Below are positions 1-16,757 of a stretch of 64,000 bases of DNA, one piece after another (the stretch's first letter is position 1; each line of letters begins with the position of its first letter). A program made the translations under genes and the position numbers. The notes under the pieces are model-generated. The model had not been told where the DNA came from. It ran no database searches and saw only the letters and a program-made list of their open reading frames with translations. Source of the DNA: Wenjunlia tyrosinilytica (GTDB lineage: Bacteria; Actinomycetota; Actinomycetes; Streptomycetales; Streptomycetaceae); contig NZ_BMMS01000007.1 of NCBI RefSeq assembly GCF_014646055.1, positions 1 to 64,000 on the forward strand, read 5' to 3'.

Positions 1-80
1 CACCTCCCCCAACGGCACGGGAGCCGCGTGCGTTGCGGGCGTCGATTCCGTCACCCGATCAGTGACCGCGCTGAAAAAGC

Positions 81-1013
81 TCACTGCTTGCCGACAGACG
101 GACGGGTCCGGTGGAGCAGCGCCGAGCCCCAGCCCTGCTCGGGAAGCTTCAGGTCCGTCTCGACGAGGCCCACCGCTTCCGCCGGCCGCAGGCCACCGAA
201 GTACATCGCGGCGAACAGACCCACAAGGCGGCGACCACGAGCACGCCGGTGCCCGCCCACATAGGAAACCGCCGCCAGGAGGTTCCGTGCCTGCTCCGGA
301 TTGGCGACCACCCGCGGGTCGACCTGGTTGGACACCTTCGGCTTCTGCCAGCGGACAGCCGTGATGGGGTTCTCACGCAGCTCCCCCAGGTCGACGGCGT
401 AATTCGCGGCATTGACGAGCGTCCGACGCTTGCGCCGCACGGTCTCCGCCGCTGCCGCCGTGCCGTCGAGCTTGAGCTTCAGCGAGTCGAGGACCGTGCG
501 AGCCGTGGCCGCTTCAGCGAGATCGGCGAGCGGCCGGGACGCCTTGGACACCCAGTGGAGAACGTTCCGCACGTCGTTCGGGACTTCTCGGTCATCGGGC
601 CCCGGAAGCACGAAGGCCCAGTTGCGCAGTGCTCTGCGGATTTCCTCGTCGGACGGTCGTCCGGCGCGCTCGTCGAGGAGTTCCAGCGTCACGCTGGTGA
701 GGGATTCGTTGATGCCATCCCTCGTATTCGGGGCGGCATGAGGCCATTTCATGGCGAGGTACCTGAGAGCGAAGGCGTACCACGACACGGCCGACTTCTT
801 CTCTTCCATCGAGGCCGGAAGTCCCGACTCCGTGTCGAACTCCTCGCCCTCGCGCATCGCACGCATGAGCTTCGTGCGGTAGTGGTCGGCGAGCGCCTTG
901 GTGCGGAAGGACTCCGAGAACACATTGCCTGCGACGGACCAGCGGACACCGTACGAGGGCGTTTTGGTGTCCCGCTTACGGACTCCCCAGACCTTCACAT
1001 TGAGAGACTTCAC
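81..1013 (-). pseudogene. int: AICE tyrosine-recombinase integrase, 3'-truncated
   Basis: Site-specific integrase of the tyrosine recombinase family that would insert the element into a tRNA gene. The product is 310 residues if it starts at the GTG at 1013, which overlaps the xis stop as GTGA with GGAGG just upstream; an ATG at 1040 is the alternative. An N-terminal arm-binding part, a core-binding helix region (about 60-200) and the first catalytic arginine (GLRPAEA, R276) are visible. The protein then stops after VGKQ, so the HxxR box and nucleophilic tyrosine are absent. Related integrases run to roughly 380-450 residues. The sequence beyond the stop does not resume the family pattern in any frame, which points to a deletion or recombination junction near base 80 rather than a simple nonsense change. 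Probably inactive. Confidence 0.85.
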
Positions 1014-1204
1014 GCCGCCTCCTCCAGCTGTCGCAGCCATGTGTTGAAGTCACTCCGCCAAACCCGCAGCTCTCCGTTGGGCAGCTTGAATGCGGCCGGC
1101 CCGTACCCCAGTTCGCGCCAGCGGTAGAACGTCCGACGGGAGACACCGCCCAGCTCATCCAGGACTTGGCGAACGGTCATCAGCTCGTCGCGCCGGGCGT
1201 CCAT
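1010..1204 (-). CDS. xis: Excisionase-like MerR/HTH_17 protein (Xis)
   Basis: A 64-residue DNA-binding protein with a winged helix typical of actinobacterial Xis proteins: a VRQVLDELGG turn, then SRRTFYRWRELGYGP recognition-helix residues, then an LRVWRSDFNTWL wing. It would direct the integrase towards excision. It overlaps repSA upstream by 25 bases and int downstream by 4 bases, so the three genes are probably translationally coupled, as in pSAM2 repSA-xis-int. It appears intact although its partner int is not. Confidence 0.88.
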   Translation of the reverse strand: MDARRDELMTVRQVLDELGGVSRRTFYRWRELGYGPAAFKLPNGELRVWRSDFNTWLRQLEEAA

Positions 1205-2541
1205 GTCGGTTCTCCTTCCGTTCCGGGGGCGGGTTCGAGGGACGCAGCGAGCCAGGCCTCGCCGTTACTCAGGCCGGTTCCGGCAAAGACCCAGTGGGCG
1301 AGGACGAGCGTGGTTTCGCCGTCCTGGGGAGCGGCCGTGGGCGCTTGTGCGCGGCGCCATTCGGCGCGGGCGTCGCGGAGGGCGCCGAGGGTGGTGGAGT
1401 AGCGGCGGGACTTGGTGGAGAAGTGGCCGCGGAAGCCGAGCATGTGGGCCCAGGCGCGCAGGCGGAGGTGTTCGAGGTCCTTGCGTGCGCCGAGGAACCA
1501 TGCGGTTCGGATCATGCGGCGGGCGTGGTCGCTGATGTCGAGCTGGGCGAGTTCGGCGGCGAACTTGAGCGGCCGGTCCAGAGCTCCCGTCGCGGTCTCC
1601 GCACCCTTGGTGGCGTACTTGGCGATGTAGGCGGCGACGGCCCGTTCGGTGAGCTCCTGGCCGTCGTCGAAGGCGGCTGAGCGGATGGTGCGTACGTCGA
1701 GCTGGCGGCCGAAGGTGAAGGTATGAGTGCGGCCGTCGATGACCGGCCCGTCCACGCGGACCTTGGCGGCGGCAGCACGGATGGCGTCCGTGAGCAGTTC
1801 GGCGGTTGCCCAGGTAGGAGGTGGGGTGTCGCCGCCGCTGGGACCGTCGATGCGGATGACGGCGTGGAAGTGGACGGCCCCGCGCTTCTGGTACTCGGCG
1901 ACCTTGGCGAAGGACACGCGGGCGTGCTCGCGGAAGCGCCGCTGGGACAGGCCGGCGCGCTTGGCGACCTCTCGGCGGACGTAGGTGGAGAAGCGCCGCC
2001 AGAGCGGACCGGCATGGGCGTTCCAAAGGACGGCTGCTTCGTAGTCGTAGGTGTCCGGGTCGAGTGGGGAGCCGAGTACGTCGTCGTCCTGTTCGTGGCG
2101 GGTGCCGCAGCGGCACGGGCGCCCGCTGGAGGGGCGGTTGTGGACCGGGCCGAAGCTCGGTGCGGTGAAGGTGGCGAACACGCGCGGGTGGGCGGCGACG
2201 TGCTCGGGGATGCCCTTGCCGCCGCGCAGGCCGGAGGTGATCAGGTGGAAGGTGTCGCGGCGGTAGACCTCCGCGCAGGCCGCGCAGCGGGTCGTGCGGC
2301 GGTTGTTGCAGCGGACGAGGAGCTGTCCGACCGGGAGGCTGGACGAGTCGAGGCGATGCAGGACGTTGCCGATCTCGCCGGTCGTGGTGTCGACGTCGTA
2401 CTCGGTGCGGTGGCCGTCGAGGCGGATCGGGTTGGTGCAGCCGCCGAGTCCGGAGAGTTGGCGGAGGATACCCGGCAGCGTGCCCTGTGCGGCCAGGTTC
2501 GCGAGTTCCGGGAGTGGGGCCGGAGTGGTGCTGGTGAAGAT
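1180..2541 (-). CDS. repSA: Rolling-circle replication initiator RepSA, non-canonical start
   Basis: Replication initiator of pSAM2-type elements, which nicks the double-strand origin for rolling-circle replication. An HUH-like metal motif (AVHFHAV, H224/H226 if numbering starts at base 2541) and candidate catalytic tyrosines (AAYIAKYATKG, Y305/Y309) are visible, with a cysteine-rich N-terminal segment (RCNNRRTTRCAACAEVYRR). The first normal start codon in frame is a GTG at 2181, yet about 120 codons of typical RepSA sequence lie upstream of it. The best-placed initiation codon is ATC at 2541-2539, six bases after AGAAGGGGA. It may be a start codon altered from ATG, a true rare ATC start, or a sequencing error. 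Full length would be about 453 residues. Confidence 0.85.
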   Translation of the reverse strand: MFTSTTPAPLPELANLAAQGTLPGILRQLSGLGGCTNPIRLDGHRTEYDVDTTTGEIGNVLHRLDSSSLPVGQLLVRCNNRRTTRCAACAEVYRRDTFHLITSGLRGGKGIPEHVAAHPRVFATFTAPSFGPVHNRPSSGRPCRCGTRHEQDDDVLGSPLDPDTYDYEAAVLWNAHAGPLWRRFSTYVRREVAKRAGLSQRRFREHARVSFAKVAEYQKRGAVHFHAVIRIDGPSGGDTPPPTWATAELLTDAIRAAAAKVRVDGPVIDGRTHTFTFGRQLDVRTIRSAAFDDGQELTERAVAAYIAKYATKGAETATGALDRPLKFAAELAQLDISDHARRMIRTAWFLGARKDLEHLRLRAWAHMLGFRGHFSTKSRRYSTTLGALRDARAEWRRAQAPTAAPQDGETTLVLAHWVFAGTGLSNGEAWLAASLEPAPGTEGEPTWTPGATS

Positions 2542-2636
2542 GGCGATTCCCCTTCTGGCTGGCTCGGTCGGGAGGAGCAGGCCCCGGGACGGCGAGATGC
2601 TTGGTCGTGTGCCGCCGCCCCGGAGGCCAGCGCGGT

Positions 2637-2882
2637 TCAGCGGCGGTGGTGGTCGCGGAGCATGGAGCGCAGTACGACGGCGGCGATGGCTACGGAGATG
2701 GCCGTGACGGCTACGGCGGCCAGGAGCGCGGTGAGGACTACCCCGCCGACGACCAGGGCCACGACGGTTTTCTGATCGTTGGCGACCGACGGGAGCGAGC
2801 GCCGTACGGGTGCCGTCTCGGTCGGGGTGTGGGTGTGCGCGGGCGGCGGGGTCGGGCTGTCGGGGTACTTCGGGAGGAACAC
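2637..2882 (-). CDS. Small membrane spread protein (SpdD-like)
   Basis: An 81-residue protein starting at GTG, with AAGGAG upstream. The first 40 residues are proline/threonine-rich; residues 41-70 form one strongly hydrophobic transmembrane segment (VVALVVGGVVLTALLAAVAV), followed by a short basic tail (RDHHRR). Position between the transfer genes and repSA, and the architecture, match the Spd proteins of pSAM2-type elements that help the plasmid form move between mycelial compartments. A KorSA-type box lies directly upstream (2901-2915), so the spd-rep-xis-int block may have its own repressed promoter. Confidence 0.65.
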   Translation of the reverse strand: MFLPKYPDSPTPPPAHTHTPTETAPVRRSLPSVANDQKTVVALVVGGVVLTALLAAVAVTAISVAIAAVVLRSMLRDHHRR

Positions 2883-2898
2883 GGTCAGGGCTCCTTAT

Positions 2899-3099
2899 CT
2901 ACTCGTCTAGGTGTGAGCCGTTTATGACGGTCACGCCGGAGCGCGTGCCGGACTCGATGCCGGGTGCGAGGAAGGTGCGGGAGAGCCAGAAGCCGAAGAG
3001 GGCGATCAGGACGACGATCCAGACGCGGACGCCGAGGAACCTGACTGCTCCCCAGGCGAAGAAGCCGAGGACGACGACAAGCGGCAGGCTGACGGTCAC
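2899..3099 (-). CDS. Small membrane protein of the transfer/spread block
   Basis: A 66-residue hypothetical protein with two hydrophobic segments, about residues 3-20 (LPLVVVLGFFAWGAVRFLG) and 24-42 (WIVVLIALFGFWLSRTFL), and a short polar tail. Its place among the spd genes suggests a role in intramycelial spread, but no family was recognised. It sits 14 bases after the preceding mobile-element gene and is very likely co-transcribed with it. Confidence 0.6.
   Translation of the reverse strand: MTVSLPLVVVLGFFAWGAVRFLGVRVWIVVLIALFGFWLSRTFLAPGIESGTRSGVTVINGSHLDE
2901..2915 (-). promoter_or_regulatory. KorSA-type operator box (copy 1)
   Basis: ACTCGTCTAGGTGTG shares the first nine bases with the boxes upstream of the Pra-like gene, korSA and the divergent transcript. 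It covers the end of the 66-residue membrane gene and the gap before the spdD-like start. Its right half is degenerate, so it may be a weaker site. The assignment rests on similarity between copies within this window. Confidence 0.5.
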
Positions 3100-3113
3100 G
3101 AGCGCGGGTCCTT

Positions 3114-3305
3114 TCAGCGAACGGGGCAGCGGTGGGTGCGGGCGGCCAGCTCGGCAGCAGCACGGCCGTCGTAGTCGGTGGAGAAACCGCAGCGCGGGGC
3201 GGTGCAGGCGGCGGTGTGCTTCTCCTGGCCCCGGCCGTCGTAGTACGTGCCGACCCGGACGGGGCCGATGCGGACGACGTTGCGGAAGCGGCGGTTGGCG
3301 GTCAC
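3114..3305 (-). CDS. Mobile element transfer protein, small basic
   Basis: A 63-residue protein starting at GTG 3305, with GAAGGAG seven bases upstream. It contains VRIGPVRVGTYYDGRGQEKHTAAC followed by a CxxxxCGF pattern and ends THRCPVR. This cysteine-containing type is found next to spd genes in many Streptomyces integrative elements and is usually called mobile element transfer protein; its biochemical role is not known. A longer open frame continuing upstream to 3875 overlaps the DUF2637 gene and is an artefact of GC bias. Confidence 0.72.
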   Translation of the reverse strand: MTANRRFRNVVRIGPVRVGTYYDGRGQEKHTAACTAPRCGFSTDYDGRAAAELAARTHRCPVR

Positions 3306-3316
3306 GCAGGTCTCCT

Positions 3317-3985
3317 TCAGAGGTGGGTGGCGATGGCTTCGGCCATGGGTTCGGGCACTCCGAGACGGGTGCGGAGGGTCGGGGTGTCGATGGGTGTTCC
3401 GGTGCGGGTGTGGTGTTCGGCGGCGACCTTGCGGGCGTGGGCGACCAGGGCGGCCGGTACGGGCAAGGTGGGACGCTCGGGCGGCTCCTGCTCGTCGGCC
3501 GGGTGGGGCGGGGCTTGTTCGGCGGCCGGGTGTGCAGGCGGCTCGGGATGGCGTTCTGGTGCCTCCGCGCGGTCGTGGACTTCGTTGTCGTTGTCGGGGT
3601 CGGCGGCCTGGTCGAGGGTTGTCGGCGCGGAGTGCGCGAGGAGCGTGCCGCCGAGGAAGGCGACCGCGGGCCAGCCCGCGACGAGGATGCGCAGCCAGGC
3701 CGGTACGTGATTCATGTCGAGGAGGCCGGCGGTTGCGACGTTGGCTCCGAGGGAGGCGGTGAGCGCGATGACGAACCAGCACCACCCGGCCGCTTTGGCT
3801 TCCCCGGACCGCAGTCGGCGCCAGGCGGCGACGAGCAGCAGGTCGACGCTGATCGGGTAGGCCCAGGCTTTCCATCCGTCCTGCCCGGCCGCTGAGGCGA
3901 TGTCGTGCAGGTGGGCGAAGGACAGTGCCGCAGCGATGACGGCTTGGATGAGCACCGCGTCCACGCGGGCCAGTTGGGCGCGCAT
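3317..3985 (-). CDS. DUF2637 membrane protein (SpdB/SpdA-like)
   Basis: A membrane protein of 222 residues from the ATG at 3985 (MRAQLARVDAVLIQ); an earlier ATG at 4045 would add 20 residues. About four transmembrane helices fill the first half: AVIAAALSFAHLHDIA, AYPISVDLLLVAAWRRL, WCWFVIALTASLGANVA and WLRILVAGWPAVAFLGGTLLAH. The C-terminal half is acidic/proline-rich and ends in a short helical DNA-binding-like patch. DUF2637 proteins sit next to FtsK-like transfer genes in AICEs and are thought to help DNA pass between compartments. The downstream gene begins 12 bases after its stop. Confidence 0.75.
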   Translation of the reverse strand: MRAQLARVDAVLIQAVIAAALSFAHLHDIASAAGQDGWKAWAYPISVDLLLVAAWRRLRSGEAKAAGWCWFVIALTASLGANVATAGLLDMNHVPAWLRILVAGWPAVAFLGGTLLAHSAPTTLDQAADPDNDNEVHDRAEAPERHPEPPAHPAAEQAPPHPADEQEPPERPTLPVPAALVAHARKVAAEHHTRTGTPIDTPTLRTRLGVPEPMAEAIATHL

Positions 3986-4068
3986 GATGCGGCTCCTTCC
4001 GGATTCAGGCATGCGAGGGGTAGGGACTTGGCGTGAGACGGTCACGCCGACCGGGGTTGGTGAGGAGG

Positions 4069-5444
4069 TCAGCCGGTTGCCGGGCGAGGTTCGATGACCG
4101 GGGCCGGGGATTCAACCGGCCGTACCGGCGCCTCGGGCTGGAAGGGCTTGAGCACGGGCACGTCCGGCACCAGGTACGCGTACTCGCGGCAGGTCTCGGC
4201 GGCGCCACCGAGTGACAGATACGGCGTCCGGATGCGCGACCAGCCGCCCGAGGTGTCACCTGCCACGGCGAGGCCGGGACGTTCGGGGGCGATGGCACAT
4301 GCGGCCATGACCGCTTCGGGTGCGATGTCGCCGAGCGCCATCTTCGCGGAGGCTTCGTCGTTCACTCGGTGGCAGACACGGCCGGTCAGCTGGGCCCGCA
4401 GCATGGTGGCACCCTTGCCCAGCTCGGCCCCGAAGCGCTGCCCGCAGACCTCCAGGTAGATGCCTGCCGCGCGGCCGAGTTGGGCGAGCCGGATGAGCTG
4501 GGTAACCATCTCGTCGCGCCGTTCCTCGTCCTTCCTGGTGGCGACGAGGAACAGTTCAGCGACCTCATCCACGAACAGCACCAGGGGACGGGGCGCGCGG
4601 ACTCGGGCAGTCCCCAGATGTCGGAGGTGAGCTCTTCGGCCGGGGTACTCGGGGCGATGCCCTGCCGGGCCTTGATCAGGTCGTAGCGGTCCTCCATTTC
4701 CTTCACGAGCACGGGCAGCAGCTCGGCTGCCTGTTCCGGTTCGGTCGCCAGCGCGGAGAGGCGGGCCGCGAACGGCGCCAGCTCCACTCCGCGCTTGCAG
4801 TCGATCCCGACCAGGGCGACCGGCTGAGGGGCGAGTCCGGCGATCAGGTGCCGCAGATACATGGACTTGCCCGACAGCGTGGCGCCGAGGGTGAGTTGGT
4901 GAGGCACGGTCCGGTAGTCGCGTACGAAGGGCATGGCATCCTCCCGCAGCGCCACCGGCACCTGAAGGAACCCGGCATCCACCTTGCGCGGCATCCGCAC
5001 CTGCCGCAGCACATTGAAGCCGACCAGCCTCAGCTCAACCACACCCGGCTTGACCGTGGTCACGTACACGGCGTGAACGCCCCAGGCATGCCGCAGCCGT
5101 TCCGCCGAGGCGGCGACATCGGCCGGTTCCTGCCCCGGAGCGAGCCGCAGCCGAAGCCGCAGCCCGGTCGAGGTGGGCCGGATGACGCCCCGACGCGGCG
5201 GTACGGGACGAACTTCTCGGCGAGTGGTGGCCTTGACCGCCAGCATCCGCAGCCGGGACGGAGCCACGGTCAGGCCGCAGGCCTCCATGACCGAGCCGTA
5301 TGAGCTGAGGAGCCGGGCCGTGGATATCGGCAGGCCGACCGTGGACCAGTACACCCCGGGATGCTTGGCCCGGGCGTAGGCGGCCCCGCCGCCGAGTGCG
5401 GCGACAGGACCACCCACCTCCAGGAGTGTCGTCAGATCGGTCAT
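4069..5444 (-). pseudogene. traSA: FtsK/SpoIIIE-like DNA transfer ATPase TraSA, frameshifted
   Basis: Conjugal double-strand DNA translocase of the TraB/TraSA type, the single transfer protein of pSAM2-like elements. Reading starts at ATG 5444 and runs about 287 codons through a Walker A box (GATLSGKS, residues 187-194). At the run of four G at 4584-4587 (C on the coding strand) the frame is lost. One extra C there would restore VPLVLFVDEVAELF, the Walker B segment, which continues in the next frame to 4069. The second part keeps the QLIRLAQLGRAAGI and TGRVCHRVNDEASAKMALGD motifs. Together about 458 codons, near normal length. A one-base deletion or a homopolymer sequencing error explains it; if real, transfer is lost. 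Confidence 0.85.
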
Positions 5445-5800
5445 CAGGCAGCGGCCCCGGTGGCGGCCGGGAACGCGGCCGGAGTCACGGCGGCGGCCCG
5501 GAAGGCGATGCCGTGCCGCTGTTGCCCGTTGAAGACGCTCTCCCACGGCCGGGCCACCAGACCCGGAAGCGAGACCGGAGCCCCGAGCGTCAGCCCCTCG
5601 GACACTCCGCTCTCCGGAACGGTGACCTTGATCAGCGACGATTCGCCGTCTTCCAGGTAGACGACGCCGATCGTCATCAGTGCCTCTCCGCTGGTGGCGT
5701 CCTTGGCGATCTCGCCGGTCTGCCGGTCGCGGACCTTGGGCTCGGGGGCCTCGGTCAGCAGGATCGTTGCGGCCGAGGTCTCTACACGGATGGTGCGCAA
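5444..5800 (-). CDS. SCO3933-type regulatory protein in the pra position
   Basis: A 118-residue protein (MRTIRVETSAATILLTEAPEPKVRDRQTGE) of the family found directly upstream of traSA in many Streptomyces elements. Its TGA overlaps the traSA ATG (ATGA), implying translational coupling. A KorSA-type box begins 16 bases upstream of the start. In pSAM2 the gene in this position, pra, is the KorSA-repressed activator of replication genes, so Pra function is a reasonable inference from position; I cannot show homology from sequence alone. Confidence 0.72.
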   Translation of the reverse strand: MRTIRVETSAATILLTEAPEPKVRDRQTGEIAKDATSGEALMTIGVVYLEDGESSLIKVTVPESGVSEGLTLGAPVSLPGLVARPWESVFNGQQRHGIAFRAAAVTPAAFPAATGAAA

Positions 5801-5815
5801 AGCTTCTTCCCATCT

Positions 5816-5830
5816 ACTCGTCTATACAAG
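5816..5830 (-). promoter_or_regulatory. KorSA-type operator box (copy 2)
   Basis: ACTCGTCTATACAAG, just upstream of the Pra-like gene at 5800. It is nearly identical to the other boxes in the element and is placed to block the transfer operon promoter, as KorSA does at pra in pSAM2. Confidence 0.75.
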
Positions 5831-5889
5831 ATGCGGCGTTCGAACCCGATCTTCCGGGAATGGCAACCACCTTGCCACACAACTTGCCC

Positions 5890-5905
5890 ACTCGTCTATA
5901 CGAGT
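5890..5905. promoter_or_regulatory. KorSA-type operator box (copy 3, perfect palindrome)
   Basis: ACTCGTCTATACGAGT is an inverted repeat of ACTCGT and ACGAGT around CTAT. It lies about 60 bases from copy 2, in the gap between the minus-strand transfer operon and the plus-strand gene at 6000. It could act on the divergent promoter. It is the best palindrome of the five and defines the motif. Confidence 0.75.
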
Positions 5906-5999
5906 ACGCCTGTTGAGATGTACGAGTTGGAGTTGGAGCAGGAGTCATGCACCACTGCTTCAAGTCCTCGCTGTCAGAGCCATGAAGCAGGATCCGAGC

Positions 6000-6368
6000 A
6001 TGCTGATTGCGACGAACACCCGCGGGCACAGGGTGAAACGCCCCTCGAAGCCGGCGATAGGCCGCATGCTCGCGAACCTGGGGCGCGGCAACGAGCACAT
6101 GGTCGTTGAACGACAGGACGCGGACGTCGTTGGCGACTGGTACATCCAGGTCCTGTTGCGCGAGAACAACACGTACCAGCTTGAGCACCGGGACGGCGTT
6201 GCTACGAAGCACTACCAGACTCAGACCGTCTCGCAGGAGAAGGTGCTTCGAGCGCTGCTCGGTTGGGCGACTGGCACATCGGAATGGCGCGAGGACTTCA
6301 TGTGGAACGACATCAGCTCGATGTTCGAGCCGCCCTCCACTGAGGACACCGCAGCGATCACCGCATAG
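6000..6368 (+). CDS. Hypothetical AICE protein
   Basis: A 122-residue protein of unknown function (MLIATNTRGHRVKRPSKPAIGRMLANLG). The ATG at 6000 has AGGA seven bases upstream; an ATG at 5982 is also possible. It has a basic N-terminus, then a mixed alpha/beta stretch with WYIQVLLRENNTYQLEHRDG, and an acidic C-terminal tail. It lies convergent to korSA, 26 bases away, and downstream of the palindromic KorSA-type box, so it may belong to the same repressed regulon. No family was recognised. Confidence 0.6.
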   Translation: MLIATNTRGHRVKRPSKPAIGRMLANLGRGNEHMVVERQDADVVGDWYIQVLLRENNTYQLEHRDGVATKHYQTQTVSQEKVLRALLGWATGTSEWREDFMWNDISSMFEPPSTEDTAAITA

Positions 6369-6394
6369 CGCCGATCCCGCTCCTTCCCGGGCGC

Positions 6395-7183
6395 TCACGT
6401 CGCTGGCAGCTGGTAAGACAGGACGTACGCGTCGGCCGCCATGACCGTGTCGCAGACCTCCACGGCCCGCCCTTCCTGGTCGAACGCGGTACGGATCAGG
6501 TGGATGACTGGCACGCCGGAGGCCAGCCGCAGCGTGCGCACCTCGTCGGGCGAGGGCATCCGGGCGCGGATCTCTTCCTCGAAGTGGTCGAGGCGGTGCC
6601 CCAGCTCCTCAAGGCGGGCGTAGATGCCGCCCGGCCCGGGGTTCGGCTCGGCGATCGAAGTACCGCGCGCGATGTCGAGCGGCAGGTACGAGGTAGCGAA
6701 CTCCACCGGCCGCCCGTCCAGCAGATACCGGCGACGCCGGGCCAGCACCCGTCGCACGGACCCGAGCCGGGTGGAGACGTCCTGGCTGGCCTTCTCCTCC
6801 TTGACCTCCAAGCTGTCCACCTGCGGGTGACTGCCGGCGGCGTCGGCCTCCACGATGAACGCGGACTTCCCCTGCTCGCGATGGCGCCGTGCGAACCGGT
6901 CGGAGGCGAGCCGCCGTACAGGCGGTCGTGGTCGCACGAAGACGCCCTTGCCGTGCTCGGCGTGCACCAGGCCCTCACCCTGGAGGACAGAGAAGGAGTT
7001 TCGAACCGTCATACGGGAAACCCCGTAATGCTCGACTAGTTCGGCCTCGGAGGGCAGCTTTTCGCCCTCCTTGAATCGCCCACGGTCGATGGCCTCGCGC
7101 AGCTGGTCGGCGATCTGCCGGAAGACCGCACGATCGCTCGTGGGGTCGAGATCGCCGAGGAGGCCGGAGGAAAGAGAGGGCAC
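6395..7183 (-). CDS. korSA: GntR-family repressor KorSA (UTRA subfamily)
   Basis: Central transcriptional repressor of pSAM2-like elements. It has 262 residues, starting at GTG 7183 with AAAGGAG upstream. The N-terminal winged helix (about 17-84) has the GntR signature FKEGEKLPSEAELVEHYGVSRMTVR and the wing HGKGVFVR; a UTRA effector domain follows (about 100-250, YLLDGRPVEFATSYLP). It would keep the pra-tra and possibly the spd-rep-xis-int blocks silent by binding the ACTCGTCTA boxes, including one in its own upstream region, giving negative autoregulation. Confidence 0.88.
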   Translation of the reverse strand: MPSLSSGLLGDLDPTSDRAVFRQIADQLREAIDRGRFKEGEKLPSEAELVEHYGVSRMTVRNSFSVLQGEGLVHAEHGKGVFVRPRPPVRRLASDRFARRHREQGKSAFIVEADAAGSHPQVDSLEVKEEKASQDVSTRLGSVRRVLARRRRYLLDGRPVEFATSYLPLDIARGTSIAEPNPGPGGIYARLEELGHRLDHFEEEIRARMPSPDEVRTLRLASGVPVIHLIRTAFDQEGRAVEVCDTVMAADAYVLSYQLPAT

Positions 7184-7195
7184 GTGTACTCCTTT

Positions 7196-7211
7196 AGGTA
7201 TCTAGACGAGT
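7196..7211 (-). promoter_or_regulatory. KorSA-type operator box (copy 4, autoregulatory)
   Basis: On the minus strand this reads ACTCGTCTAGATACCT. It sits between the korSA start (7183) and the divergent NUDIX gene (7267), the expected place for korSA autoregulation and for control of the pif-like gene. Confidence 0.7.
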
Positions 7212-7266
7212 GGGCGAGCTTTATTGCTACGGTGGAGAGCCTAGCCAGCCGAGAGAGCAGAGGAAC

Positions 7267-7698
7267 GTGAGCACCGACCGTCCGCACTCCGTGAGCGTCG
7301 CCGGAGTCATCGTCGACGAGCAGGACCGCGCCCTCTTGATCAAGCGCCGCGACAACGGCCACTGGGAACCCCCGGGCGGAGTCCTCGAACGCGAGGAAAC
7401 CATCCCCGAGGCCCTCCAGCGCGAAGTTCTCGAAGAAACCGGCATCAAGATCGCGCTTCCCGCGACCCTGACCGGCATCTACAAGAACATGAAGGGCTTG
7501 ATCGTCTCCATGGTCTTCCGCTGTGAGGCCGCCGACGGCACGCCCACCACCGGGGACGAGACCCGCGCACTGCGCTGGGCCACCCGCGAAGAGGTCATCG
7601 AACTCGCCGACGAGGCGTACGCGATCCGCGTCCTGGACGCATTGGACGCGGTCTCCCCGCCGGCCATCCGCGCCCACGACGGCGTGAAACTCGTCTAG
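7267..7698 (+). CDS. pif: NUDIX hydrolase, Pif-like
   Basis: A 143-residue protein starting at GTG 7267 with AGAGGAA upstream. It contains a NUDIX box, G-V-L-E-R-E-E followed by REVLEETGI, matching Gx5Ex7REUxEExGU, which binds metal and hydrolyses nucleoside diphosphate derivatives. In pSAM2 the gene beside korSA, pif (pSAM2 immunity factor), encodes a NUDIX protein that blocks redundant transfer between cells already carrying the element. Position and fold fit that role; the substrate is unknown. Confidence 0.8.
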   Translation: MSTDRPHSVSVAGVIVDEQDRALLIKRRDNGHWEPPGGVLEREETIPEALQREVLEETGIKIALPATLTGIYKNMKGLIVSMVFRCEAADGTPTTGDETRALRWATREEVIELADEAYAIRVLDALDAVSPPAIRAHDGVKLV

Positions 7699-7739
7699 CC
7701 CGAACCCGCTGCACATGGCGGCCTACCAGCACGAAGAAA

Positions 7740-7754
7740 CTTGTATGCACGAGT
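7740..7754 (-). promoter_or_regulatory. KorSA-type operator box (copy 5)
   Basis: On the minus strand ACTCGTGCATACAAG, identical to copy 2 except for two central bases. It spans the start codon of the ATPase-fold gene at 7745, a position where a bound repressor would block transcription or initiation. Confidence 0.6.
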
Positions 7755-8170
7755 ATACGAGCACCGCCCGGGTCTGGGGACTCACTTGCCCAGGTTTTCC
7801 GGAAGAGGTCAGCCGGGCCCGCCGCTGGACACGGGACATCCTGCGCGGATCTCCCCTGGCCGACGATGCCGAACTGATCGTGAGCGAGCTGAGCGCGAAC
7901 GCGATCCTCCACACGACGAGTGGCGGGGTAGGCAGCTTCCACCTGGCCCTCGCGGTCTCCCCCAAGGTGGTCGCCCTGTCGGTCACCGATGAGGGAGGAA
8001 CGGGCACGGCCCCGAAGGTCGAGCAACCGAGCATGGACGCGGTACACGGCCGCGGCTTGGGCATGGTCAGCGTCATCGCACACCGGGTCATCGTCCACGG
8101 CAGCCACAGCGGCTACACCGTCACCGCCGAACTCTTCACGGACAACCAGCCGGGAGGACTCCCGTGCTGA
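7745..8170 (+). CDS. HATPase-fold anti-sigma-like ATP-binding protein
   Basis: A 141-residue protein (start ATG 7745; an in-frame ATG at 7715 is less likely because it precedes the operator box). It has the GHKL ATPase layout of Streptomyces RsbW-like proteins: SELSANAILHTTSG (N box), SVTDEGGTG (G1-like) and HGRGLGMVSVIAHR (G2). Such proteins bind ATP and can act as anti-sigma or anti-anti-sigma kinases; many AICEs carry one of unknown target. It overlaps the next gene by seven bases. Confidence 0.75.
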   Translation: MHEYTSTARVWGLTCPGFPEEVSRARRWTRDILRGSPLADDAELIVSELSANAILHTTSGGVGSFHLALAVSPKVVALSVTDEGGTGTAPKVEQPSMDAVHGRGLGMVSVIAHRVIVHGSHSGYTVTAELFTDNQPGGLPC

Positions 8171-8550
8171 TGGACAAGCCCCAGCGGGGCTTCTGGTGCG
8201 AGTGCTGGACCCAGAACGTCAACGACGAGGCAGGTCGGCCGGCACTCCGGGCATCATTCGACGCCTACTCGGCGCCACAGGCTGACAGATGGGTAGCGGT
8301 CGCCCTGCGCACCATCTCACCAGCACTCGATCCGGACGCCTCCGACGAGGCCTGGGCCTGGCTCTACGACGGCCGCATCGACACGCGGCGAGCCCTCTTA
8401 CGCATGGAACCCTGCACGGTCTCCGTTACCCACGCCAGCAGCCGCATCACATGGACGATCCGACCAGTCGTCTTCCTGCCGTTGCTCCACCGCCAGGGTG
8501 CGGAACTCCCAGCCTGCGCATACGACTTCACTCCCCCCACCGCAGACTGA
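8164..8550 (+). CDS. Hypothetical AICE accessory protein
   Basis: A 128-residue protein starting at GTG 8164 (or ATG 8170), overlapping the end of the ATPase-fold gene, so probably translated together with it. It is rich in tryptophan and aspartate (WCECWTQNVND, DEAWAWLYDGR), with no signal peptide or membrane segment. No family was recognised. Confidence 0.55.
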   Translation: MLMDKPQRGFWCECWTQNVNDEAGRPALRASFDAYSAPQADRWVAVALRTISPALDPDASDEAWAWLYDGRIDTRRALLRMEPCTVSVTHASSRITWTIRPVVFLPLLHRQGAELPACAYDFTPPTAD

Positions 8551-9106
8551 GTTACAACTTTCTCTACTGGTTTCAAGGCGGCTCGCTCCGCTCCCCGCGC
8601 ACGGCCCGGCCCCCGGCCGGGCCTGCGCTCCTGTCTACGCCCCGCTCCAGCCCGGCCGGCGCCCGCGCCGCGCGCACAGCAAACAGCCGCCTGACGCCAG
8701 AGAAGGGGCACGTCGTGGCTGGGGCGGTCGCCTCCACGGCTTTAGGCAGCCACTTTGGCGCGAGCCTCGCAGATCATGGCCCCAACGTCGTGCTTTACCG
8801 GGCAGGTCCACAGACTGCCCGACGCGCCGAAAGCTTACGGGGCCATGATCACTCGCGCCAAAGCAGCTCCAGCCCAAAGCCGCTCCACCGACCTACCGTT
8901 CGCGCCCCGCGCGCCGAGTGGCAGGGGCCTCTCTGAACCGCCCAGGGTGCCAGCATCCACACGGAGCTGGCCGAGGAAAGGAAGGCTCACGGACTTGCCA
9001 ACAGGTGTCAGTCATCCTCGCTAGAGTCAGACGAGCGGCCGATGAAGACACGTGTCATAATCCGGCCCGTCAAGCCAGGGCCAGTTCGGACAAATGGAGA
9101 CATTCA
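8551..9106. other. Intergenic region with GC hairpin and large inverted repeat
   Basis: No convincing gene. It begins with a GC-rich palindrome near 8600 (GGCCCGGCCCCCGGCCGGGCC), probably the terminator of the preceding pair. A long imperfect inverted repeat follows at 8754-8862 (separate entry). The rest leads to the hsdM promoter and its site GGAG at 9096-9099. Confidence 0.6.
8754..8862. repeat. Imperfect inverted repeat, about 25-bp arms, inner hairpin
   Basis: TTTGGCGCGAG...GATCATGGCCCC (8754-8783) is mirrored by GGGGCCATGATC then CTCGCGCCAAA (8839-8862). The left arm has about six extra bases in the middle. The loop contains a second stem, GGGCAG (8800-8805) with CTGCCC (8815-8820). 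As RNA or cruciform this would be a long structured element upstream of the restriction operon. It resembles the terminal repeats of a tiny non-autonomous element or a structured leader; nothing decides between these. Confidence 0.75.
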
Positions 9107-10672
9107 GTGGCACGTCAGGCCAGAAAAACACCCAACAAATCGCTTGAGCAGCGACTGTGGGACGCGGCCGACGCCCTCCGTGGCAACCAGGAGCCGTCCG
9201 AGTACAAGCACGTCGTCCTCGGCCTCGTGTTCCTGAAGTACATCTCCGACCGTTTCGAGGCTCGCCGCACAGAGCTTGCGGCCGAGCTACGGGCAGATGG
9301 TATCCCTGAGGCAAGACACGCCTCATTCCTCGAGGATCGTGACGAGTACGCCAGCCAGAATGTCTTCTGGGTGCCGGCCGATGCCCGCTGGGAGTCGATT
9401 CAGGCCCAGGCCAAGCTGCCGAAGATCGGCCAAGTCATCGACAGCTCTATGGATAAGATCGAGTCGTCGAACCCGGCCATCAGGGGTGTGCTACCGCGTA
9501 ACTACGGACGCGAGGGGCTCGACAAGGGACGCCTCGGACAACTCGTCGACCTGATCGGCTCGATCGGCTTCACCGAGAGCGATGATCACGGCAGCGACGA
9601 CGTACTCGGCCGTGTTTACGAGTACTTCCTCGGTCAGTTCGCTGGTAAGGAGACAGGCAAGGACGCAGGGGCGTTCTACACGCCCCGATCCGTGGTCAAA
9701 ACCCTCGTCGAAATGTTGGAGCCATACCATGGTCGCGTGTACGACCCGACGTGTGGCTCTGGCGGAATGTTTGTGCAATCTGCCGAATTCGTAAAGGCTC
9801 ACGGCGGTAAGCGGACGGACATCTCCGTCTACGGCCAGGAGTTCACCGAAACAACCTGGAAGCTCGCCAAGATGAACCTTGCCCTCCGGGGCATCGAGGC
9901 TGATCTTGGCGACCGTTCAGCTGACTCCTTCAGTCAAGATCTGCACCCGGACCTACGCGCCGACTTCATCCTCGCCAACCCACCCTTCAATGTCTCTAAT
10001 TGGTGGGACGCCAAGCTACAAGATGATCCGCGCTGGAAGTACGGCACTCCGCCAGAAGGCAACGCGAACTTCGCATGGGTGCAACACTTCATCCATCATC
10101 TGTCACCGAAGGGTACTGCGGGCTTTGTCCTCGCTAACGGTTCCCTCGCCGCGAAGGGAGCCGAGGGAGATATCCGGCGTAAACTCCTCGAGGCCGAACT
10201 AGTCGACTGCATCGTCGCTATGCCGGACAAGCTGTTCTTCAATGTGCAAATTCCGGTGACGCTCTGGTTCATTGCCAAGGATCGGCACGGGAACGGCCAT
10301 CGCCGTCGACTCGGCGAAGTGCTGTTCATCGACGGACGGAAGTTTGGTGCGTTGGAGACCCGGCGGCTGCGCGCGCTAAACGACGAAGAAATCGCCAGCA
10401 TCGCAGGTGCCTATCACTCATGGCGCAACACCGATGGTGACTATGCAGATGTACCTGGATTCTGCAGGTCGGCGACGCTCGAAGAAATTGCCGCGCACGA
10501 CTACGTTCTGACGCCTGGGCGGTACGTTGGGACGGAGGCGGCAGCACTTGACGACGAGCCAATACAAGAGCGGATCGATCGACTGAAGTCAGCGCTCTTC
10601 GCCGAGTTCGACCGCGGGCGCGAACTCGAGCAGATCGTACGAGAGCGTCTCGGAGGCCTCCGTGTCGGTTAG
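9107..10672 (+). CDS. hsdM: Type I restriction-modification methyltransferase subunit
   Basis: N6-adenine methyltransferase and modification subunit of the HsdRMS complex, 521 residues. The GTG at 9107 is preceded by GGAG at seven bases and starts the family-like sequence LEQRLWDAADALRGN; open frame further upstream is not supported. HsdM N-terminal domain about 10-150; GAFYTPRSVV near 190; S-adenosylmethionine loop DPTCGSGGMF near 214; catalytic NPPF near 290. It overlaps hsdS by 11 bases. Codon use has more A/T third positions than the surrounding chromosome, consistent with transfer. Confidence 0.93.
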   Translation: MARQARKTPNKSLEQRLWDAADALRGNQEPSEYKHVVLGLVFLKYISDRFEARRTELAAELRADGIPEARHASFLEDRDEYASQNVFWVPADARWESIQAQAKLPKIGQVIDSSMDKIESSNPAIRGVLPRNYGREGLDKGRLGQLVDLIGSIGFTESDDHGSDDVLGRVYEYFLGQFAGKETGKDAGAFYTPRSVVKTLVEMLEPYHGRVYDPTCGSGGMFVQSAEFVKAHGGKRTDISVYGQEFTETTWKLAKMNLALRGIEADLGDRSADSFSQDLHPDLRADFILANPPFNVSNWWDAKLQDDPRWKYGTPPEGNANFAWVQHFIHHLSPKGTAGFVLANGSLAAKGAEGDIRRKLLEAELVDCIVAMPDKLFFNVQIPVTLWFIAKDRHGNGHRRRLGEVLFIDGRKFGALETRRLRALNDEEIASIAGAYHSWRNTDGDYADVPGFCRSATLEEIAAHDYVLTPGRYVGTEAAALDDEPIQERIDRLKSALFAEFDRGRELEQIVRERLGGLRVG

Positions 10673-11879
10673 TTCCACTACGCTTCCCCTGGGAGCTACC
10701 CTTGCCCGAGGGCTCGGGGAGGCTAACCAACTGCCATGGCCATTGGCCCGCGCTAGCACGCTTTTTGAGCTGCGCTATGGTAAGGCCTTGGTTAAGTCGG
10801 CCCGCCGGCCCGGGCCTGTGCCGGTCTTCGGTACGAATGGTCAAACAGGTAGTCATGACACGGCTCTCTTCAAGGGCCCCGGAGTTGTACTCGGGCGCAA
10901 GGGCCAAGGTCCACTTGGCGTCGAGTGGGTCGATGAGGACTTTTGGGTCATTGATACCGCCTACGCCCTGAACGTGATCTCAAACGAGGTCGATCTCAAG
11001 TTCGCGTACTACCTGATTAAGTACGTAGGCCTTAATCACCTCAAGGACGGAACATCCAATCCATCACTGAGCCGTGAGACGTTCGCTGCACAACTCTTCC
11101 CAAAGCCTCCACTTGACGAACAACGGGGAATCGCTGCGACTTTGTCGGCGCTCGACGAAAAGATCGAGTCGGCTACTCGCGCTCGAGATCTGATCGAGGA
11201 CTTGATTTCCGCCTCATTCGAAGATCTTATCGCATCGTCACCTGTCACGAGAGTGCCTCTTGAGGACTTGGTTTCCACGACAAAGGGCGTGTCCTACAAA
11301 AGTGTGGACTTGCAGGAGTCGCACACGTCGCTTGTGACTCTCAAATCCTTCCATCGCAATGGTGGTTACAAGGCCAACGGCCTGAAGCCGTACGTCGGCC
11401 CTTACAAGCCTCAGCAAGTCATCGCGCCGGGTGAGATCGTCGTGGCACAAACCGATCTAACACAAGGCGCAGAGGTTGTTGGCCGCGCCGTCCGGGTTCC
11501 TGCAGATGCCTCGGCCGAGGTCCTGGTCGCTTCCCTAGACCTGGTCATCGTTCGCCCCAAACCCACCATATCGCGGGAATACCTGCTGGGAATTTTGAGC
11601 GACGAGTCGTTCCGGCAACACTGTCGCAGTCGAACTTCGGGCACGACTGTTCTACACCTGTCAAGCGACGCTATTCCTGCTTACTCGGCGCCGCTTGTGC
11701 CTGACGGTGCGCGCGACGAGTTTTCGGCATTTGCACAGCCTCTTCTAGCACGTGCCGACACGCTCGTTGCAGAGATCGAGAAACTCAAGGCGCTCCGCGA
11801 TGGGCTACTGCCGGATATCTTGGCAGGTCGCGTCCGGGTACCGAAGGCAACACTCAAGCTCCTGGAGGTCGTGAGGTGA
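10662..11879 (+). CDS. hsdS: Type I restriction-modification specificity subunit
   Basis: DNA-sequence recognition subunit, 405 residues, starting at GTG 10662 inside the end of hsdM. It has two target-recognition domains (about 20-130 and 205-345), each followed by a conserved helical spacer: the first around [22 protein letters not shown]-like sequence at about 145-175, the second ending [19 protein letters not shown]. The arrangement is the usual half-repeat one, so the target is predicted to be bipartite; the bases cannot be deduced. GTG of hsdR overlaps its stop. Confidence 0.92.
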
Positions 11880-14800
11880 CAGGTACCTTCAACGAATCTG
11901 TCGTAGAGGAAGCTGCTCTCGACTATTTGCGCGAGCTTGGTTACTCGACGGAGTTCGGCCCGAACCTGTCGGCCGACGGTCCCCGGCCGGAGCGGGCCTC
12001 CTTTCATCAGGTTTACCTGTACGAACGACTAAGGGATGCCGGCCGCCGTCTGAACCCCGCACATACCGACTTGGTCGATGATGCTATTAAGCGGCTGGAG
12101 CGCGCCGAGTCGCAGAATGCACTCGCCGAGAACTTCCGCGTCCATCAACTCCTCGTTCATGGCGTGCCGGTTGAGTATCGTGACGCCCAGGGGATTCTCC
12201 GGACCACCCAAGTCAAACTCATCGACTTTGACAACCCTGACAGCAATGATTGGCTAGCGGTAAACCAGTTCACGATTGTTGAAAACAAGCATCGCCGGCC
12301 AGATGTACTGGTTTTCATCAATGGTATCCCCGTTGCTCTGCTGGAGCTTAAGAGTCCGGCGGACGAGCACGCTACTCTTAAGAACGCGTGGAACCAGATA
12401 CAGACCTACCGCACGGACATCCCGTCCGCCTTCACATCGAATGCCATCGTGGTCATCTCAGACGGTACGAGCGCGGCCATGAGCTCGTTCTCTGGTGGCT
12501 TCGAGCACTATGCTCCTTGGAAAACTATTGATGGCCGCGACGTCGTCAACGGCAGGCCCGCCCTTGAGGTGCTACTCAAGGGTGTCTTTGACCCAACCCG
12601 TTTCCTGGACATCTTGAAGAACTTCATTGTCTTCAGCGATGAGCCGGTCGGTCTTGTCAAAAGGGTGGCGAAGTATCACCAGTACTGGGCCGTCAACGCC
12701 GCGGTCGAGTCAACCGTCCAAGCGTCCAGCCCCAATGGTGACCGTCGTGGTGGTGTCGTCTGGCACACCCAGGGCAGCGGGAAGTCCATTGAGATGCTGT
12801 TCTACGCGGCCAAGACCATGCGGGATGCTCGAATGAACAACCCGACGCTGGTCTTCCTAACCGACCGCAACGACCTAGATGATCAACTCTTCGCCGAGGT
12901 CTTTGCACCCGCCGAAATCCTGCCTGAGAAGCCCGTTCAAGCCGACTCGATCAGCGATCTGCGTACTCTGCTGCGCCGGGTATCTGGCGGCATCATCTTT
13001 ACAACTCTGCAGAAGTTTCGCCCTGAAGAAGGGCTTGACGTAAACCCCATCCTCACCGACCGACGCAACGTCGTCGTGGTTGCCGATGAGGCCCATCGCT
13101 CGCAGTACGGCTTCACAGAGACCCTTGACGAAGAGGGCCGACTCAAGTCGGGACTCGCTAAGCACATGCGGGACGCGCTGCCCGGTGCCACGTTCCTCGG
13201 TTTCACAGGCACCCCCATCGAGTCCGGAGACAAATCCACTCGCTCGGTATTCGGGGCCTGCATCGACGTCTACGACCTAACCCGTGCAGTTGAGGACGGC
13301 GCCACCGTCAAAATCTTCTACGAGTCACGCCTGGTCAGGGTCGGCCTGTCAGACGACGACTACCAGGCGCTCGACGAGTTGGCCGCGGAGATAACGGAGA
13401 AGGTCGAGCAGGAGGAAGGCGAGAAGGCGATGTCTCGCTGGGCGCGCCTAGAGGCAATCGTTGGCAGCGAAGAGCGCCTTGACCTCGTGGCGGCAGACAT
13501 CGTTCGTCACTGGGAGAAGCGCCGCGAAGCAATGATCGGCAAGGCCATGATCGTCACAATGTCGCGCCGTATCGCGGTGCGGCTCTACGAGAAGATCGTG
13601 ACACTGCGGAACGCCTGGCACAGTGACGATCCAGCTCAGGGCAAGATCAAGGTCGTGATGACGGGATCAGCTGCCGACCCGGAAGAGTACCAGCCTCATA
13701 TCCACTCGAAAGACGTGCGCAAGGCCTTGAAGGCGCGAGCCAAAAACCCAGAGGACCCGCTCGAAATAGTCATCGTACGCGACATGTGGCTGACTGGTTT
13801 CGACTCGCCGTCAATGCACACCATGTATGTCGACAAGACGATGCAGGGAGCTAGCCTTATGCAGGCGATCGCCCGCGTCAACCGCACCTTTCGCGACAAG
13901 CCTGGTGGCCTTATCGTCGATTACATCGGTGTCTTCTCGAACCTACAGAAGGCACTCGTCGAGTACTCCCCGAGCGACCGTGACCAGGCCGGCGTGCCGA
14001 TCGACGAGATCGTCGCCGTGATGATGGAGAAGCACGACATCATCTGCGGGCTGCTTCACGGCTGCCGATTCAATTCCCTCCCGGACCTTTCGGCAGCACA
14101 GCGGCTAGCTGAGCACGCTCGTGTGCTCGACTTCGTCATGGCAGACCCGGACCGCACCAAGCGCTTCCTTGACCAGGTACTGGCGCTCGCTAAGGCTTAT
14201 GCCCTTGCTGGCTCACGAGATGAAGCTACAGCCATTCGCAATGACGTGCGACTCTTCGCTGATGTCCGTGCCGCCATCCTGAAAATCCAAAACCCGGACT
14301 CCGGGCGCGGGGGAGCCGGTGGCATTGAGATCGACACCGCCATCGGGCAACTGGTTAACGAAGCGGTAGCCGCCGATGAGGTGGTCGACATCTACAAGCT
14401 CGCCGGCATCGAGACGCCCGAGTTGTCCATCCTCTCCGATGAGTTCCTTGACTCGCTAGTCGACAAAGACAAGCCTAATCTTCAGATGGGGTTGCTGCGC
14501 CGTTTGCTAGCCGACCAGATCAAGAGCATTCAGCGCTCCAACGTAGTGCAGGCACGGAAATTCTCTGAGCTGCTCGAAGCAGCGATCAATAAGTACACCA
14601 ACCGTTCGCTGACGACGGCTGAGATCATCGCCGAGCTGGTCAAGCTGGCGAAAGAGATGCGGGACCAGACGAAGCGACACGATCAACTCGGGCTCACGGT
14701 GGCGGAGGCCGCCTTCTACGACGCCATCGTGCAGAACGACGCGGCCGTTCTCCAGATGGGCGACAATGTCCTGAAGAAGCTGGCCCACGAGCTGGTCGAA

Positions 14801-14983
14801 TCGATCCGTCAGAGCGCCACCATTGATTGGAACCTTAAAGAGTCCGTCCGAGCCTCTATGCGTGCCAAAGTACGCCGCCTACTCGCTAAGTACGATTATC
14901 CGCCCGATCTCGAAGAAAAGGCTATCGACCTTGTACTCGAACAGGCCGAAGTCTACGCAGCCGATGCAGCGGGAGCCTCCTAA
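11876..14983 (+). CDS. hsdR: Type I restriction endonuclease/translocase subunit
   Basis: Motor and nuclease subunit that cleaves unmethylated DNA after ATP-driven translocation; 1035 residues, normal length. The N-terminal nuclease has the [12 protein letters not shown]...LLELKSP PD-(D/E)xK-type core near 140-162. Helicase motifs: Walker A TQGSGKS (about 297-303), ADEAHRSQ (about 402), GFTGTP (about 441) and [10 protein letters not shown] (about 662). A helical C-terminal domain follows. It starts at GTG 11876, overlapping hsdS by four bases. No damage is visible, so the system is probably functional. Confidence 0.93.
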
Positions 14984-15367: not shown

Positions 15368-16039
15368 TCACGTGTCGCATCCGCTGGCCGTGTGCTCCCA
15401 AATAATGATGTCTGCCGCTCGAAGAAGGCTGAGAGGCCTCTCGTCAGGCATGCGGATGCGGACAATAAGGTCTTGGATCCAATCCCGGTGACGGCGTAGG
15501 TCTGCTTGCAAGAGCGGCCACAAGCGGCGAGGGGTGTCCTTATAGGCCCCGGGAACTGGCTTTTCCCCGAGGTAGAACTGGTAGATGCTGCTGTCGAAAA
15601 TCGGCACTAGGTTAGGCCGCTTGCGGTGGAGGATCTTCGTAATGGCAACGGCCTTGAAGTCCGGCAGGCCCGTACCGTCGGCTTCACCTGTAGCGACCAA
15701 TGCTCGATCGACCAGGGACCAGGGTCCCATGGACGGATCCAGCGTCACGTCCAAGAAGTCCGCTGTCGCACAGGCCCCGTCGGCAAGCACCGCTTCCATT
15801 GCCTGTAGGACTTCAGCCCCTGGGCCGTCAGGGCGAAACAACGGAACTACCTGCTTGTAGCCAATGCGAACACTCAGCAGGGCCGGCGCCAGACAGTCCA
15901 GTGGGCTCAATCGTTCCGGGTCGCCCTGCCAGTCATACGTACGAAAGGCTCTGGGGCCCCGAGGATCTGTGTAGGTCTGAAGGTGCCTCTCCGCACAACC
16001 ACGCAGTGATCCGACGGTTCTCACGTAGTCCCTCCCCAC
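15368..16039 (-). CDS. Hypothetical protein, DUF6308-like
   Basis: A 223-residue cytosolic protein of unknown function near the right end of the element. Features include an N-terminal LRTYxxxG-like region (FRTYDWQGDPERLSPLDCLAPALL), LPDFKAVAITKILHRKRPNLVPIFDS in the centre, and a C-terminal RPLSLLRAADIIIWEH. This pattern resembles the actinobacterial DUF6308 family, whose role is unknown; the family name is from memory and tentative. Its location between the restriction system and the tRNA-like site makes it a candidate cargo gene. Confidence 0.6.
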   Translation of the reverse strand: MGRDYVRTVGSLRGCAERHLQTYTDPRGPRAFRTYDWQGDPERLSPLDCLAPALLSVRIGYKQVVPLFRPDGPGAEVLQAMEAVLADGACATADFLDVTLDPSMGPWSLVDRALVATGEADGTGLPDFKAVAITKILHRKRPNLVPIFDSSIYQFYLGEKPVPGAYKDTPRRLWPLLQADLRRHRDWIQDLIVRIRMPDERPLSLLRAADIIIWEHTASGCDT

Positions 16040-16187
16040 AGCCTTGATGACTCGCCCGGCAACGCCCCCGCCGGGACCAGAGCAATGCTCATGCGCATGC
16101 TACGAGCTGTGGACTATGTGTGGACCGATCCCTATCTAACAGCCGTCTGCAAGGCAGTGACCTGCCTCGATTCTTGGTAGTCAAGCC

Positions 16188-16231
16188 CCCTCCGGAGCCG
16201 TGTGCGCAGGTTCGAATCCTGCCGGGGGCAC
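16188..16231 (+). other. attR: 3'-half tRNA-Arg(CCG) copy, probable right attachment site (att)
   Basis: The sequence holds the 3' half of a tRNA: anticodon loop CTCCGGA (anticodon CCG) and stem GCCGT, a short variable loop GTGC, the T-arm GCAGG-TTCGAAT-CCTGC, and acceptor strand CGGGGGC with discriminator A. No D-arm or matching 5' half is present. This is what AICE integration leaves at the distal end. The intact tRNA would be to the left, outside this window, beyond the truncated integrase. It fixes the right border of the element near 16.23 kb. Confidence 0.75.
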
Positions 16232-16757
16232 TTCGCAGGAAGTGCCCAAAGACCCCGCCATCAGCGCTTTCGCTGAGGACGAGATCTTCGCGTATGTGCA
16301 GCCAGATGGCAGTGATCACGCAATCACGACGTAGTGATCTTGTCGAGCTTCGCAGTAGGTCAGCAGGACCTTTCGTCGTCCCCGGCAGCAGCCAGTTCCA
16401 GGAAGGACAGCGCCCCCGCTGCGGGTTGGAATCATGCTGAGGGCATCGTGATGAGGTGTCCGCGGAATCAACACCGCCCACCTTTCACCGGTGCGTGTGA
16501 ACCCCTGCGCGGGCCGCCCGCCGATCGGCAGGATGGTCAGCATCCACATCGAGGAGCGTCATATCCCCCAAGGGGCCGCAGCGGCATGCCTCCACCATCG
16601 GAGACGAGCACTCGAACCGGCACAAACCGCAACTTACTGCCGGGCGCAGCTGCTTCGATCGGCTCCGCGCTTCTGCACACAAGCGGGCACCACAGAAAGT
16701 GCGCTCGCCTGAATGCCGGATTCCGGCCTTCAGCCATGGAACGAAAGCAAAGGTGTC
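16232..16757. other. Junction region right of the att site
   Basis: About 525 bases between the tRNA remnant and the next gene. Just after the remnant is AAAGACCCCGCC, of the kind that often follows tRNA genes. No complete gene or clear repeat is visible. Confidence 0.45.

Follow-up and report, generated by a model that had tools for sequence, protein, structure and literature searches.

The closest described counterparts of the site reported here are the single-strand origins (sso, or minus origins) of rolling-circle plasmids and elements. In the accessible parts of PMC4170104, the sso of pIJ101, known as sti, is placed beside spdA2 in the interval between korB and spdA2, and RNA-polymerase-independent priming is cited for pSN22. 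The sti of pHZ1358 is given as 76 bp in the part of the literature covered. The cis-acting transfer locus (clt) of pIJ101 consists, according to the accessible part of PMC3583192, of three 5-bp direct repeats near korB. Among integrative conjugative elements, an sso (sso1) has been proven for ICEBs1, where it is orientation-specific and contains stem-loops, and the parts of PMC4595007 covered mention none for an actinomycete element. Integrative elements that replicate by the rolling-circle mode need their displaced single strands to be made double again, and the Tra proteins of such elements are thought to move double-stranded DNA according to the accessible sections of PMC3218068. The start of their second strands is unreported in the literature searched. 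Nor did we find an sso of an actinomycete integrative element, modular or otherwise, described in that literature, which took in few subscription papers and not the original reports on sti and pSAM2. Here we examine a locus of Wenjunlia tyrosinilytica that appears to supply a candidate for such a site. The window is the whole stretch analyzed, the first 64,000 nucleotides of contig NZ_BMMS01000007.1 (assembly GCF_014646055.1), and all coordinates below refer to it unless another record is named.

The original prediction was of a 109-base inverted repeat with an inner hairpin at 8754-8862, and its arms and helices were found at these places on the plus strand. The main helix pairs 8754-8764, which reads TTTGGCGCGAG in the window, with 8852-8862, giving 109 bases from outside to outside. 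A second helix between 8772-8783 and 8839-8850 is complementary at all 12 of 12 positions, and an apical hairpin of the form CGGGCAG-loop-CTGCCCG occupies 8799-8821 (arms 8799-8805 and 8815-8821). This inverted-repeat pattern occurs once in the window against an expectation of zero. When folded as RNA, 8740-8880 reached -71 kcal/mol, compared with -44.9 ± 3.5 for 200 shuffled versions (z -7.5), none of which folded as well. Homologous copies share sharp limits at about 8715 and about 8894, indicating that the unit is a module of approximately 180 nt at 8715-8894. We refer to it as module B, a bipartite hairpin of which the inverted repeat forms the core. Its outermost helix joins 8726-8730 to 8889-8893, and as DNA the module folds with z scores of -7.5 for the minus and -6.2 for the plus strand. 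Conservation ends at these limits, and the downstream flank is near random. The repeat had been placed in an otherwise empty gap, a description that must be corrected since the feature is larger than 8754-8862 and is preceded by a second conserved segment at 8553-8680, here called module A.

Module B lies in an integrative conjugative element of the pSAM2 type (about 1180-8550), in which Pfam recognized RepSA, Tra, KorSA and Nudix genes. On the minus strand are repSA for a rolling-circle initiator (1237-2469, an open frame without stops, with a Pfam RepSA match at 1180-2181) and the genes for a DUF2637 spread-type protein (3317-4045), an FtsK/SpoIIIE transfer protein of the TraSA type (4069-5813, in two overlapping frames) and a GntR/UTRA regulator of the KorSA type (6395-7183). 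The plus strand encodes a Nudix protein of the Pif type (7210-7698), a HATPase_c_2 protein (7715-8170) and a hypothetical protein whose frame (8164-8550) is common to several related elements. The presence of RepSA contradicts the earlier view that the window encodes no partner enzyme. Neither the ends of the element nor an integrase was found in the window, the first base of which is also the start of the contig. The transfer gene is split into frames of 475 and 170 amino acids; its relatives at three other loci (L053, L056 and L067) are single frames of 538-546 amino acids. The split, which may reflect a frameshift or a sequencing error, suggests that the element in the window may be transfer-dead. 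Downstream of module B are the hsdMSR genes (about 9050-14983), and beside them at 15368-18164 are a DUF6308 gene and a gene with RAMA and CBS domains, which may be part of the same defence cargo. When the window and 43 other B loci were searched with tblastn, the window alone gave an HsdM match, and we therefore regard the restriction operon as an incidental neighbour.

A search for copies elsewhere, as had been proposed with the original prediction, found module B to be neither confined to this site nor unconserved. A covariance model (R1) built from 35 sequences and run on 150 related genomes detected it in 47 of them, at 99 distinct loci (E ≤ 0.001). The underlying alignment represents 35 of 43 B copies, the other eight being omitted because one half had diverged or the copy was weak. 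A pattern scan of named genomes matched at least 119 stretches, and R1 scored at least 50 bits in 105 of the 119 pattern-matched stretches listed, nearly all of them from Streptomyces. The genome of W. tyrosinilytica itself holds no other strong copy. Four plasmids (L029, L030, L031 and L032) also carry the module. In the linear plasmid L030 (NZ_CP109595.1), a good copy at 1958-2109 lies 2 kb from one end, with a helicase gene and a GC-rich array of repeats next to it. A link to telomeres was considered as several plasmid matches lie about 2 kb from ends, but was rejected: the gene neighbourhood is the same in all those that were read, one of these records is circular, and other matches lie far from any end. 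In two plasmid records (L032 and L075), the set of rep and transfer genes is present twice, head to tail and nearly identical, which may reflect dimers or assembly duplications. Two IMG/VR contigs catalogued as viral (L205 and L206) carry module B as well, raising the possibility that integrative elements have been misfiled as viruses. At one further locus (L052, G016:C20), an integrase gene, A and B are found beside a tRNA-Arg gene in a genome without a RepSA match, and this locus may be a remnant or a minimal element.

The pairing in module B is conserved beyond its sequence. Double changes were present in 15 of the 47 pairs tested, including three of the six pairs of the outermost helix, and the 5′ arm of the main helix reads CATGGGGCGAG in other copies, with a matching change in the opposite arm. 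Double-change cells numbered 99 compared with 28.8 in shuffled alignments, none of 500 of which reached that number, and with at most 15 in slid controls; the alignment was built from sequence and in turn supplied the structure, for which reason one control (b) leans towards the structure. A count of wobble pairs, taken as a guide to the strand that folds, gave 41 G-T against 67 A-C combinations on the plus strand, or 127 against 60 under another pairing of one base; it omits opposite-strand and weak matches, and its direction hinges on that one pair.

Module A (8553-8680, plus strand) is a relative of a pIJ101 segment in the sso interval. It is related to 7265-7384 of pIJ101, the match at 80% covering 7269-7389; this segment sits between korB and spdA2, and relatives were also found in pSN22, pJV1, pTSC2 and others. 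In the 7 of 8 plasmid records with an identified rep, A and rep lie on opposite strands. Based on its position and conservation, we infer that A probably corresponds to the sti/sso of pIJ101. It is not the clt, which in pIJ101, by our reading, corresponds to a region around 6880-6935, across korB from A. The folding of A relative to shuffled sequences is weak, with 10 copies spanning z scores of -0.6 to -4.2 and the window at -3.4, and RNAalifold detected no structure common to the module A copies; folding as a single strand, a property expected of an sso, is less well supported for A than for B. The same interval of pIJ101 (L028) contains another conserved segment at 7397-7659, with relatives in L071, L072 and L074-L077, and in pSN22, pJV1, L076 and L077 this segment directly follows the GntR gene. 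It was considered as a relative of B and rejected because it shows no similarity to B and no excess folding (z +1.7) and is often placed elsewhere. No sequence relative of module B was detected in pIJ101, pSN22 or pJV1.

The arrangement of A and B is regular. Within the 500 nt upstream of B, A was detected in the same orientation at 120 of 159 loci from four partly overlapping sets (25/37, 19/21, 46/67 and 30/34), never on the other strand, and on the 3′ side of B at 0 of 162; opposite-strand and weak matches were omitted from these counts, and one masked stretch (L159) was excluded from the A set. A class of elements with B only was also entertained and discarded: blastn had missed diverged copies of A, and reading of the upstream DNA together with an HMM revealed A in most of them.

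In elements that lack B, a second large hairpin is present downstream of A. This hairpin, here called cassette D, appears unrelated to B. It measures 151 nt, with 23 and 27 pairs in its two helices, folds as DNA with a z score of -5.8 and shows 28 double-change cells compared with 9.8 in shuffled alignments (0 of 500 as high; 11 sequences). In a fold test confined to the first 200 nt after A, D elements showed no excess, the hairpin being cut by the 200-nt limit. Of 28 genomes, 18 contain D, at 32 places in all, counted as one row per place after 29 opposite-strand rows were dropped, and D was absent from the window and from the rolling-circle plasmids tested (best E 0.02). The genome of W. 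tyrosinilytica contains a second RepSA element (G000:C8:180374-185616), which has module A in the usual polarity without B or D.

All three modules keep a fixed orientation to the replicon, as would be expected of an sso. Among the matches listed, RepSA was within 20 kb of at least 41 of the 99 B loci, on the opposite strand in 40 of 41 and always (41 of 41) on the 5′ side; these numbers derive from the RepSA rows minus second pieces of split genes and sub-cut-off matches, plus 17 extra rows. At most 58 of the 99 have no listed RepSA within that distance, and they are probably remnants or contig ends. At the single exception in strand, in genome G087, RepSA lies at a distance of 15.5 kb and is accompanied, in the normal polarity, by an A and a D of its own. 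Module A is opposite to RepSA in 50 of 51 cases and cassette D in all 21 with RepSA nearby. The orientation of the KorSA gene and the gene neighbours vary among loci, but that of rep does not.

The distribution of the two hairpins was examined at 65 RepSA loci, which are the near-full-length rows from 28 genomes after 25 partial or weak rows were omitted. A was near 49 of them, B near 26 and D near 19. The loci divide into 23 with A and B, two with B alone, 13 with A and D, five with D alone, 12 with A alone, nine with none and one with all three. The last is the G087 locus, where B belongs to a separate element. The probability that B and D would meet at no more than one locus by chance is 1.4e-4. 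On a tree of 40 RepSA proteins, well-supported branches force at least seven changes between B and D (shuffled mean 13.7), and at least eight are forced on a tree of 37 Tra proteins (shuffled 12.5), which omits five of 42 loci, four without Tra in the stretch and one with a short protein. Sisters on the Tra tree with support of 100/98 carry different cassettes, D in L305 and B in L220. The cassette is thus to some extent inherited but frequently exchanged, without being tied to the type of Rep or Tra.

We propose that A (8553-8680) and B (8715-8894) together probably constitute the single-strand origin of this pSAM2-type element. The site follows neither Rep nor Tra, yet its polarity is fixed and its folding conserved, a combination that favors an sso. 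Module B is also non-coding, folds as a single strand and belongs to an element that encodes a rolling-circle initiator. In the proposed mechanism, RepSA would start rolling-circle replication of the excised element, and one strand would be displaced as a single-stranded circle. By analogy with rolling-circle plasmids in general, we take the displaced strand to be the rep-sense strand, that is, the minus strand of the window. In this strand B, adjacent to A, would adopt a two-tiered hairpin fold that recruits host priming proteins so that second-strand synthesis starts, the site being exposed only upon strand displacement. B is one of at least two hairpin cassettes, the other being D, that can stand in for each other in the same place 3′ of A. 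The folded form would be single-stranded DNA with a role in priming replication. As a counterpoint to the sso, 39 of the 65 RepSA loci are without B, and nine are without A, B and D. A more specific reading, which we put forward tentatively and with somewhat less than even confidence, is that B and D, as two mutually unrelated families of single-stranded DNA hairpins, are swapped among actinomycete integrative elements independently of the replication and transfer proteins, each adding a distinct host-priming signal, for example for the loading of a primosome or primase, to an ancient sti-like core in A. If this were true, the elements would carry a modular, exchangeable minus origin.

Several other functions could be envisaged for such a hairpin. 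B, and likewise D, could be a clt bound on double-stranded DNA by the element's own FtsK-type Tra. The elements do hold a Tra, a conserved polarity would suit a translocase too, and no clt motif is described for pSAM2 in the accessible part of PMC9513070. We nevertheless regard a clt as unlikely. The known sites are sets of short direct repeats (PMC3583192 and PMC4170104, in the parts covered), but no 8-mer is repeated within module B and no family of direct repeats was detected at 8500-9200. The arms of B change in sequence while their pairing is kept, and a specificity for Tra is at odds with the switches of cassette type on the Tra tree and with loci that have RepSA and B or D but no Tra in the searched stretch (L033, L293 and L294). 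A double-strand (plus) origin nicked by RepSA would also be a hairpin adjoining a rolling-circle replicon in fixed polarity. Against it, B is missing within 20 kb from the 39 near-full-length loci noted above, and B and D replace each other on closely related RepSA proteins, although a plus origin would be expected to follow its Rep. The word CTTGATA, the nick motif of the pC194 type, was not found at 1-9200. A plus origin is for these reasons very improbable.

The remaining alternatives include those offered by the original prediction. A structured RNA, as a regulator or as the leader of a neighbouring gene, would agree with the strong fold, its covariation and the G-T pairs tolerated on the plus strand in one pairing. 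The conserved fold is the part of that proposal that stands. Rfam 15 at gathering score gave no match across the 64,000 bases, and a scan of 8500-9200, which has limited power for GC-rich actinobacterial promoters, gave neither promoter-like nor terminator-like sites. In addition, conservation stops at the ends of B, and it is rep rather than the gene neighbours or KorSA that keeps its orientation. Single-stranded DNA is the better reading of the fold, and we consider an RNA function quite unlikely. The idea of a mobile remnant was right in that B resides within a mobile element. The sharp ends, the many copies and the occurrence of several per genome might further suggest a small non-autonomous, MITE-like repeat moved by an enzyme in trans. 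Random insertion would not be expected to give a constant strand and side relative to rep or a constant place after A; B is therefore not an independently hopping repeat, and the MITE-like explanation has very little probability. The suggestion that B is an attenuator delaying expression of the hsd restriction operon draws on its place ahead of hsdM in the window. Since tblastn detected HsdM at none of the 43 other loci, the downstream flank is not conserved and no T-run such as an intrinsic terminator or attenuator would need follows the hairpin, we find this explanation scarcely credible.

A swappable, orientation-fixed hairpin beside a sti-like core would be a concrete candidate for the site where second strands start, and a marker for such elements and their remnants. 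It would also allow the host proteins behind second-strand priming in actinomycetes to be sought. With respect to known systems, the element resembles the pSAM2-type AICE (RepSA, Tra, KorSA and Pif) in its RepSA, DUF2637, FtsK, GntR and Nudix genes at 1237-8550, and differs from it in having Tra in two frames, with neither ends nor an integrase found in the window. Like the clt of pIJ101, pJV1 and pSVH1, the site is a non-coding cis element of Streptomyces conjugative elements; unlike it, B has no direct repeats and is independent of the type of Tra. With the sso-bearing plasmids pIJ101, pSN22 and pJV1 it shares module A, a relative of the pIJ101 segment between korB and spdA2, in the same polarity to rep, while B and D are unmatched in those plasmids and represent extra hairpins 3′ of A in the integrative elements. 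ICEBs1 belongs to another host group, and the likeness to it is one of description. As with its sso1, the putative single-strand origin in the window is fixed in orientation, contains stem-loops and resides on an integrative conjugative element.
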